A DNA stretch of 64,000 bases. Origin: an actinobacterium SCGC AAA278-O22. Its GTDB lineage: Bacteria > Actinomycetota > Actinomycetes > Nanopelagicales > Nanopelagicaceae. The stretch spans positions 1 through 64,000 of the forward strand of contig AQUA01000006.1 in NCBI GenBank assembly GCA_000372185.1, written 5' to 3'. Of the stretch, positions 776 to 4,993 are shown one piece after another; position 1 is the stretch's first letter; the number at the start of each line of letters is the position of its first letter. Under the pieces are notes generated by a model that saw only the letters and a list, made by a program, of their open reading frames with translations, did no database searches and had not been told where the DNA came from. Made by a program: the position numbers and the translations under genes.

Positions 776-1891
<1,116 letters not shown>

Positions 1892-1936: not shown

Positions 1937-2824
1937 TTAGGCGCCTATCGCCTGCGAAATCTCCTGGCATGCGTGCTCTAGGCCTTCGGCGCGGATGACT
2001 TCATCACATTTCACAGAGTCCCACCCTGGACCGCCGACCACGATTCGTGGTGCTGGACGAATTGCAGGAAGTTCTCTCCAATACTTATTTTCTGCATTCT
2101 TTGGCAACTGCGCCCATAAGAAAATTGCAGGTGGAGCACATCGCGTCACCATCGCAGAGAGCGCAGAAAGTGGAGTGCGAGCGCCTAATACATAGGTCTC
2201 GATATTTCTTTCGCAGAGCGCTGCAGCAAGTGCATAGACCGGAAGTGAATGAAGTTCTTCTCCGACGGCTGCGAGCAAGACCGGGCGATTGTTGAGAGGC
2301 TTCTTTAATTCAACAACCCGATTGTGCATGGTGCGCTTTAATATTTCTGAGAAGAGATGTTCGACTTCAATCCCTTTTTGATTGTTCTCCCACTCTTCTC
2401 CGATCATAAAGAGGGTGGGCACGATGACATCAGACCAAGCACCTTCGACGCCATAGGTTTCGATCTCATGGGCCAAAGTCTTTTCTACGAACTCTCGATC
2501 AAAAGCTTCGAGCGCTTTATAGAGGGCGTCGACAACTTCTTCACGGACTTCAAATACTTTAACAATCGTTTCAATCTTTACAGCGCTCTTGCAATTACGC
2601 GCTTGTTCAGCAGCCTCTGCCGGAGCAACGCCCGCGACAATAAGGCGACGCATCATGGTGAGCTTTGCTAAATCTTTAGGGCAGTAGCGGCGGTGTTCGC
2701 CTTCCACATGCTCTGATGGCCCTAAGCCATAGCGACGATCCCAGGTGCGCAATGTGGCAGGAGCGACGCCGATTCGGCGGGCGACGGCAGCAACCGTGAG
2801 CTTCTCTTCAACCTTCTCTGCCAT
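1937..2824 (-). CDS. MerR-type HTH regulator with cobalamin-binding domain (CarH/LitR-like)
   Basis: A 295-residue predicted transcription factor. Residues 9-75 are a MerR winged helix (LTVAAVARRIGVAPATLR, then WDRRYG and GEHRRY). Residues 90-165 resemble the four-helix cap of B12 photoreceptors and contain the signature W-x9-E-H (Trp145, Glu155, His156). Residues 180-295 look like a Rossmann cobalamin fold, with the usual E-x-H-x-x-G ligand motif appearing as GEELHSLP (His192). In CarH these residues sense adenosylcobalamin and light. It is divergent from whiB across 144 bp; the ATG at 2824 has no clear ribosome site, so the mRNA may be leaderless. The domain call is good. Light sensing and the target genes are inferred; repression of carotenoid or photolyase genes is typical for the family but none are in this window. 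Confidence 0.8.
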   Translation of the reverse strand: MAEKVEEKLTVAAVARRIGVAPATLRTWDRRYGLGPSEHVEGEHRRYCPKDLAKLTMMRRLIVAGVAPAEAAEQARNCKSAVKIETIVKVFEVREEVVDALYKALEAFDREFVEKTLAHEIETYGVEGAWSDVIVPTLFMIGEEWENNQKGIEVEHLFSEILKRTMHNRVVELKKPLNNRPVLLAAVGEELHSLPVYALAAALCERNIETYVLGARTPLSALSAMVTRCAPPAIFLWAQLPKNAENKYWRELPAIRPAPRIVVGGPGWDSVKCDEVIRAEGLEHACQEISQAIGA

Positions 2825-2910
2825 GGGGCAATCGTGGCGTGAAGTGTCTCAACTCACCACCTGAAATTCGGACATATCGCCCATTGAACAAGGCACGGCG
2901 CGATAGATAC

Positions 2911-2939
2911 TTGAACAACTTATGAAACGGTTGTAGCCT
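2911..2939 (+). promoter_or_regulatory. Candidate sigma70-type promoter for whiB
   Basis: TTGAAC (2911-2916) and TAGCCT (2934-2939) are separated by 17 bp and lie 30 bp upstream of the whiB start. An AAAGGAG ribosome site follows at 2955-2961. Found by eye only. No clear inverted-repeat operator for the divergent regulator was recognised in the 144-bp spacer. Confidence 0.35.
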
Positions 2940-2968
2940 GCTCGTAGCAAGAACAAAGGAGAAAAGTC

Positions 2969-3271
2969 ATGGCTGAACTATCACGTCTACCTCAACCGAT
3001 TGCAGAGCAATGGGAGTGGCAGTACGAAGGTGCGTGCCGTTCGATGGACTCTGAGATGTTCTTCCATCCTGATGGAGAACGAGGTCCACGACGTCGCAAT
3101 CGCGAAAATGCTGCCAAAGCTGTCTGCGCCTCATGCCCTGTCATCAATGCATGCCGCGAACACGCGCTCGCTGTGCAGGAACCTTACGGAATCTGGGGCG
3201 GTCTATCAGAAGATGATCGCGCAGCGATTCTTATGCGCCGTGGAATTCCGCTGATTTCAACCGCATCATAA
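2969..3271 (+). CDS. WhiB-family iron-sulfur transcription factor (WhiB3-like)
   Basis: A 100-residue actinobacterial Wbl protein. It holds a [4Fe-4S] cluster through Cys23, Cys53, Cys56 and Cys62 (C-x29-C-x2-C-x5-C) and has the GIWGG turn (74-78) followed by a basic tail, which in the family contacts the primary sigma factor and DNA. The segment MDSEMFFHPDGERGPRRR is the form seen in WhiB3-type rather than WhiB1/WhiB2-type proteins, as I recall them. Family members respond to redox or nitric oxide and adjust metabolism or development. AAAGGAG lies 7 nt before the ATG. It is one of the few plus-strand genes, divergent from the CarH-like regulator and convergent with groEL. Confidence 0.92.
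   Translation: MAELSRLPQPIAEQWEWQYEGACRSMDSEMFFHPDGERGPRRRNRENAAKAVCASCPVINACREHALAVQEPYGIWGGLSEDDRAAILMRRGIPLISTAS

Positions 3272-3355: not shown

Positions 3356-4993
<1,638 letters not shown>

Follow-up and report, generated by a model that had tools for sequence, protein, structure and literature searches.

A LitR-branch B12-binding regulator and its probable target, a divergent whiB3 gene, in Nanopelagicaceae and other Actinomycetes

The light-sensing protein of freshwater actinobacteria "has not yet been identified", according to a study of two Microbacteriaceae (PMC8591293). A 64,000-nucleotide stretch of DNA from the actinobacterium SCGC AAA278-O22 (Nanopelagicaceae), called the window below, carries a gene for a MerR-type regulator with a B12-binding domain that is divergent from a gene of an iron-sulfur WhiB redox factor. 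Does the regulator control its neighbour, and is light the signal to which it responds? The first-pass annotation of the window knew of no described pairing of this sort. We likewise found no published account of the pairing in a literature search limited to open-licence papers, and a review of Wbl proteins (PMC6282962) mentions neither a MerR regulator nor a divergent partner.

The genes stand in the order guaB, regulator (minus strand), whiB3 (plus strand), groEL, and the starts of the divergent pair are 144 bp apart. Both open reading frames and the shared region lie where the first-pass annotation had placed them. The features are listed in Table 1.

Table 1. Features of the regulator-whiB3 locus (positions in the window)
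Feature	Position	Strand	Basis
guaB (IMP dehydrogenase family), context	776..1891	-	Pfam; neighbour in relatives too
MerR HTH and B12-binding regulator, 295 aa (LitR branch)	1937..2824	-	Pfam, alignment, AlphaFold model
Shared intergenic control region, 144 bp	2825..2968		between divergent starts
Conserved block CTCACCACCTGAAAT, regulator's side of the intergenic region	2853..2867	.	alignment
Weaker tandem copy of the operator core, TTGAACAAGGCACGGCGCG	2884..2902	+	27 bp upstream of the main copy
Candidate main operator TTGAACAACTTATGAAACGGTTGTA, fills the whiB3 promoter from -35 to -10	2911..2935	+	conservation; lost with the regulator
Predicted -35 of whiB3, TTGAAC	2911..2916	+	from sequence; position and 17-bp spacing kept in 43 family loci
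Predicted -10 of whiB3, TAGCCT (family form TAnnnT)	2934..2939	+	from sequence
WhiB3/WhiD orthologue, 100 aa	2969..3271	+	ORF, Pfam, sequence match to WhiB3
groEL, context	3356..4990	-	Pfam; neighbour in relatives too

The regulator has an N-terminal MerR HTH and a C-terminal B12 domain made of a helix bundle and a Rossmann part. The HTH named in the first-pass annotation was recovered by Pfam (MerR_1, 6.8e-13) together with B12-binding_2 (5.2e-9), while the match to Pfam B12-binding was below the threshold. Thermus CarH matches the protein with an E-value of 7e-18 and about 25% identity. In the AlphaFold model (pLDDT 87) the B12 domain matches those of T. thermophilus CarH (TtCarH) and of photocobilins with Z-scores of 19-20. 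The residues that had been proposed as a Wx9EH motif and a lower-ligand histidine (W145, E155, H156 and H192) are aligned with W131, E141, H142 and H177 of Thermus CarH. They are nearly invariant in 122 paired homologues (W in 119, E in 113, H in 120 and the lower His in 121), and such retention argues against a chance pattern.

A strict CarH is defined by two signatures, Wx9EH and a second B12 motif, ExHx2Gx41SxV/Tx22-27GG (PMC8156234). In the second motif the regulator keeps E190, H192 and G264G265 with exact spacing and has P195 in place of G, W237 in place of S and Q239 in place of V/T. The same is seen across the 122 paired homologues, where G is replaced by P or A, S by W (117/122) and V by Q (98/122). 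Judging by these counts, the cofactor site looks maintained but consistently altered. CarH uses His132 as its cobalt ligand in the light state; this position is occupied by Glu146 in the regulator and by histidine in none of the 122 homologues. The NCBIfam CarH model NF052513 gives 106.8 bits at a cut-off of 400. Strict CarH membership is ruled out by His132, the second motif and this score; the label "CarH-like" holds for the fold and the lineage and fails for strict membership, as the second signature is only half kept and His132 is absent. In the tree the regulator is grouped with homologues linked to photolyase and ECF sigma genes (SH-aLRT 83-98 at the relevant forks). By its sequence it is best called a LitR-branch member of the LitR/CarH superfamily.

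The partner is clearly a WhiB protein (Pfam Whib, 3.7e-26). It has cysteines C23, C53, C56 and C62 and the GIWGG motif, and it matches M. tuberculosis WhiB3 at 1.4e-34 against 2.8e-14 for WhiB1. With four cluster cysteines, G[VI]WGG and WhiB3 as the best match it belongs to the WhiB3/WhiD class, in agreement with the original description of the gene as WhiB3-like.

Conservation of the neighbourhood in close relatives had been set beforehand as a check. The divergent pair is present in 30/30 and 12/12 family loci (42 in all), so the coupling stands where absence from close relatives would have counted against it. Beyond the family, the pair was found in 76 of 80 named loci (75 by script and L088 by eye) that extend from Nanopelagicales to Pseudonocardia, Saccharothrix, Lentzea and Motilibacter; groEL is usually found alongside, and guaB often. 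The four loci without the pair come from three Actinomadura and one Frankiaceae MAG. On this distribution the pair is old and widespread in Actinomycetes, in freshwater forms and in many soil relatives; it is no speciality of a sunlit-water bacterium. The genus of the window, g1, is placed in Nanopelagicaceae by L142, a named member that has the same guaB as L065.

Several individual loci deserve mention. Four of them (L071, L072, L080 and L113), all from records titled as Bifidobacterium breve MAG, are grouped in the tree with uncultured freshwater actinobacteria, and these organism names look wrong. One genome (G364) contains two divergent regulator-WhiB3 pairs, L033 and L056; in the L056 regulator W, E, H and the lower His are all lost, as if the use of B12 had been abandoned, and yet the pairing is retained. 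At L025 (G139) the regulator is intact, but at 1290-1500 the entire intergenic region is missing together with the central part of whiB3 and its cysteines. The start codons there nearly touch each other, as a result of either a genuine deletion or a mistake in the assembly.

An alignment of 44 family intergenic regions contains one nearly unchanged block, TACTTGAACAACCTATGnnnCGGTTGTA. It reads as the predicted promoter of whiB3, with -35 TTGAAC, a 17-bp spacer and -10 TAnnnT; a generic sigma-70 scan of the region called no promoter. The tandem copy TTGAACAAGGCACGGCGCG scores 18.6 bits, whereas the best of 20 shuffles reached -1.2, and a second core copy is present 25-27 bp upstream in most loci of genus g1 and in some distant loci. 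The block CTCACCACCTGAAAT is conserved in most of the family and may belong to the promoter of the regulator gene itself. Perfect palindromy was rejected as the binding unit: the ACAACC/GGTTGT arms are present in many family loci and break down in the distant loci, which makes direct repeats equally likely.

The exact pattern of the element occurs in 87 of 151 family genomes, with one copy in each, and all of these genomes are regulator-positive. Thus the element is found in 87/106 regulator-positive and in 0/45 regulator-negative genomes (Fisher 1e-23, kinship ignored); the exact pattern is absent from 19 regulator-positive genomes. When 3 mismatches were allowed, each of 14 family genomes again had a single site. 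A diverged form is present in most distant pairs. Of 12 genomes of 5-13 Mb in which one such variant was searched for, 8 had it once, at the locus of the regulator, and 4 had no match. A larger regulon was therefore rejected, as no second site was found in the 14 family genomes at 3 mismatches or in the 8 larger genomes at 1 mismatch. For a shorter pattern, with 1 mismatch allowed, three near matches turned up in the genome that contains the window.

Loss of the regulator provides a natural comparison. Among 24 family genomes without it, WhiB3 is retained in 7, and the other 17 are left with distant WhiB paralogues alone. Genus g2 (G001, G018, G030) has neither the regulator nor the WhiB3 orthologue and keeps distant WhiB paralogues, so the two genes appear to be often lost together. 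In all six whiB3-positive, regulator-negative genomes with readable upstream DNA the element is gone and whiB3 lies directly beside guaB; the element scores at these loci are from -20 to -39 against 30 or more. The guaB tree requires at least three separate changes behind the loss of the regulator and the element. In L151, L156 and L157 the loss of the element could be a passive effect of deletion. In L153-L155 promoter-like hexamers are still present upstream of whiB3.

A change of neighbour is equally informative. In the three Actinomadura loci (L109, L130, L150) the regulator adjoins DNA photolyase and ECF sigma genes instead of whiB3, and in front of the sigma gene lies a form of the element that scores 26.2, 29.6 and, weakly, 11.2 (shuffle maximum 4.9, from 15.5 kb of L187). 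Before the Streptomyces-type ECF sigma gene, L188 had no match and L187 only a weak one (8.5, where the shuffle maximum was again 4.9), and for these reasons it is not counted as support. Since the element is kept and lost with the regulator and precedes the Actinomadura sigma gene, the regulator very probably binds it and controls whiB3. The comparison of genomes shows what appears to be a regulator-site-target unit dedicated to whiB3. The step from a gene pair to regulation is thus better supported than could be known from the single sequence available to the first-pass annotation.

We favour the following reading, with a probability of about 0.6: an adenosylcobalamin (AdoCbl)-binding LitR-branch regulator dedicated to whiB3 binds the promoter element and likely represses the gene, and light is the most likely signal. 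The binding site of the regulator would lie between the two promoter hexamers of whiB3 (-35 and -10), with a tandem second copy 26-27 bp upstream in the genus of the window. Repression is the most likely mode because the predicted promoter has a normal 17-bp spacer, and it would be exerted by blocking RNA polymerase. AdoCbl held between Wx9EH and His192 would set the DNA-binding state. Light would break the Co-C bond, the repressor would be released, and WhiB3, the presumed redox output of the unit, would be made as the photo-oxidative load rises. An adenosyltransferase is encoded in 36/36 genomes, and AdoCbl is probably made from cobalamin in these cells; being present everywhere, the enzyme is useless as discriminating evidence for a link to AdoCbl synthesis.

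Light sensing by the regulator is plausible by analogy, through members of its clade, in Actinomadura and in Streptomyces-type genomes, that have photolyase and ECF sigma genes as neighbours. In S. coelicolor, LitR uses coenzyme B12 and regulates litS in response to light (PMC12705666). Two presumably Streptomyces-type homologues, L034 and L037, adjoin a photolyase gene, and L034 also an ECF sigma gene. Both nest in the clade of the regulator and have the same altered residues (Glu at the H132 position, Pro at Gly and Trp at Ser). It is mainly because of these homologues and of S. coelicolor LitR that light is kept as the favoured signal despite the loss of His132.

The same regulator, operator and target could instead serve a different signal, namely the AdoCbl supply or corrinoid state of the cell, so that WhiB3 would follow the cofactor status. 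The absence of His132 from all 122 paired homologues speaks for this: in TtCarH its loss is reported to largely stop the light-driven breakdown of the tetramer, the H132A variant staying largely tetrameric in light (PMC10442372, at odds with an earlier report). However, AdoCbl is intrinsically photolabile, homologues that carry these very residues adjoin photolyase and ECF sigma genes, and S. coelicolor LitR responds to light (PMC12705666). We consider a pure cofactor sensor rather unlikely. It is less likely still that the domain binds another corrinoid, a tetrapyrrole or nothing, which would make the whiB3 regulator independent of B12. The replacements in the second motif at otherwise fixed spacing, the diverged paired copy L056 without W, E, H and the lower His, and a photocobilin as the top-ranked fold match are consistent with such a change. 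On the other side, Wx9EH and E-x-H, which cap the adenosyl group and provide the cobalt ligand, are almost invariant, and the Z-scores of photocobilin and CarH differ by no more than 1.

The remaining alternative denies any functional link: the gene order at groEL-guaB would be simply inherited, and the element would be the core promoter of whiB3 or a site of WhiB3 autoregulation, unrelated to the regulator. Some synteny is indeed expected here, as groEL and often guaB are conserved alongside the pair, and the element overlaps both the -35 and the -10. But the element is gone from all six regulator-less genomes that keep whiB3, even where promoter-like hexamers persist (L153-L155), and in Actinomadura it stands beside the regulator before an ECF sigma gene, not before whiB3. 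This explanation seems highly improbable to us.

A wider proposal goes further, and we make it only tentatively. A B12 light switch and a WhiB redox factor may form an old actinobacterial module, from which LitR-LitS and the Actinomadura photolyase/sigma switches would be derived by change of target; it may sense light without the His132 ligand swap and be a light sensor of abundant freshwater actinobacteria. Nanopelagicaceae gain a candidate light sensor whose target and 25-bp site are defined and with which natural knock-outs can be compared. For WhiB3/WhiD, a redox regulator that has been studied intensively, there is now a likely upstream regulator in many actinobacteria. The B12 switch itself would need to operate without the His132 of CarH. 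The coupling is new in its target, WhiB3, and in the altered switch; it lies within the LitR/CarH kind and is not a new category.

Among known systems, M. tuberculosis WhiB3 and Streptomyces WhiD share with the partner the Wbl class, as judged by sequence, and the place beside groEL. Photocobilins and the MerR B12 protein of Chloracidobacterium (8j2w, 8jbs) have the same B12 domain fold as the regulator (Z 18.9-20.3), but they are only 18-20% identical to it, and the photocobilin is not a MerR regulator in these records; the comparison of folds gave no evidence for a bilin cofactor in the regulator. T. thermophilus CarH (5c8d) is similar in the MerR HTH, Wx9EH, the lower-ligand His and tandem sites. 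Its B12 domain has the fold of the regulator model (Z 19.5-19.8, 2.6 A), and TACTTGAACAA fits the CarH half-site nAnnTnnACAn (PMC8156234). Unlike CarH, the regulator lacks His132, carries other residues at G, S and V of the second motif and has a predicted target outside carotenoid synthesis. S. coelicolor LitR-LitS resembles the regulator-whiB3 unit in the domain layout and in having one adjacent regulatory gene as a target. The photolyase/ECF sigma neighbourhood of L034 is similar to that of LitR-LitS, a likeness of gene arrangement, the S. coelicolor LitR sequence itself being outside the comparison. In contrast to the LitR system, the regulator of the window has no adjacent carotenoid or photolyase gene, and whereas S. 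coelicolor LitR targets an ECF sigma factor, the predicted target here is the redox factor WhiB3.
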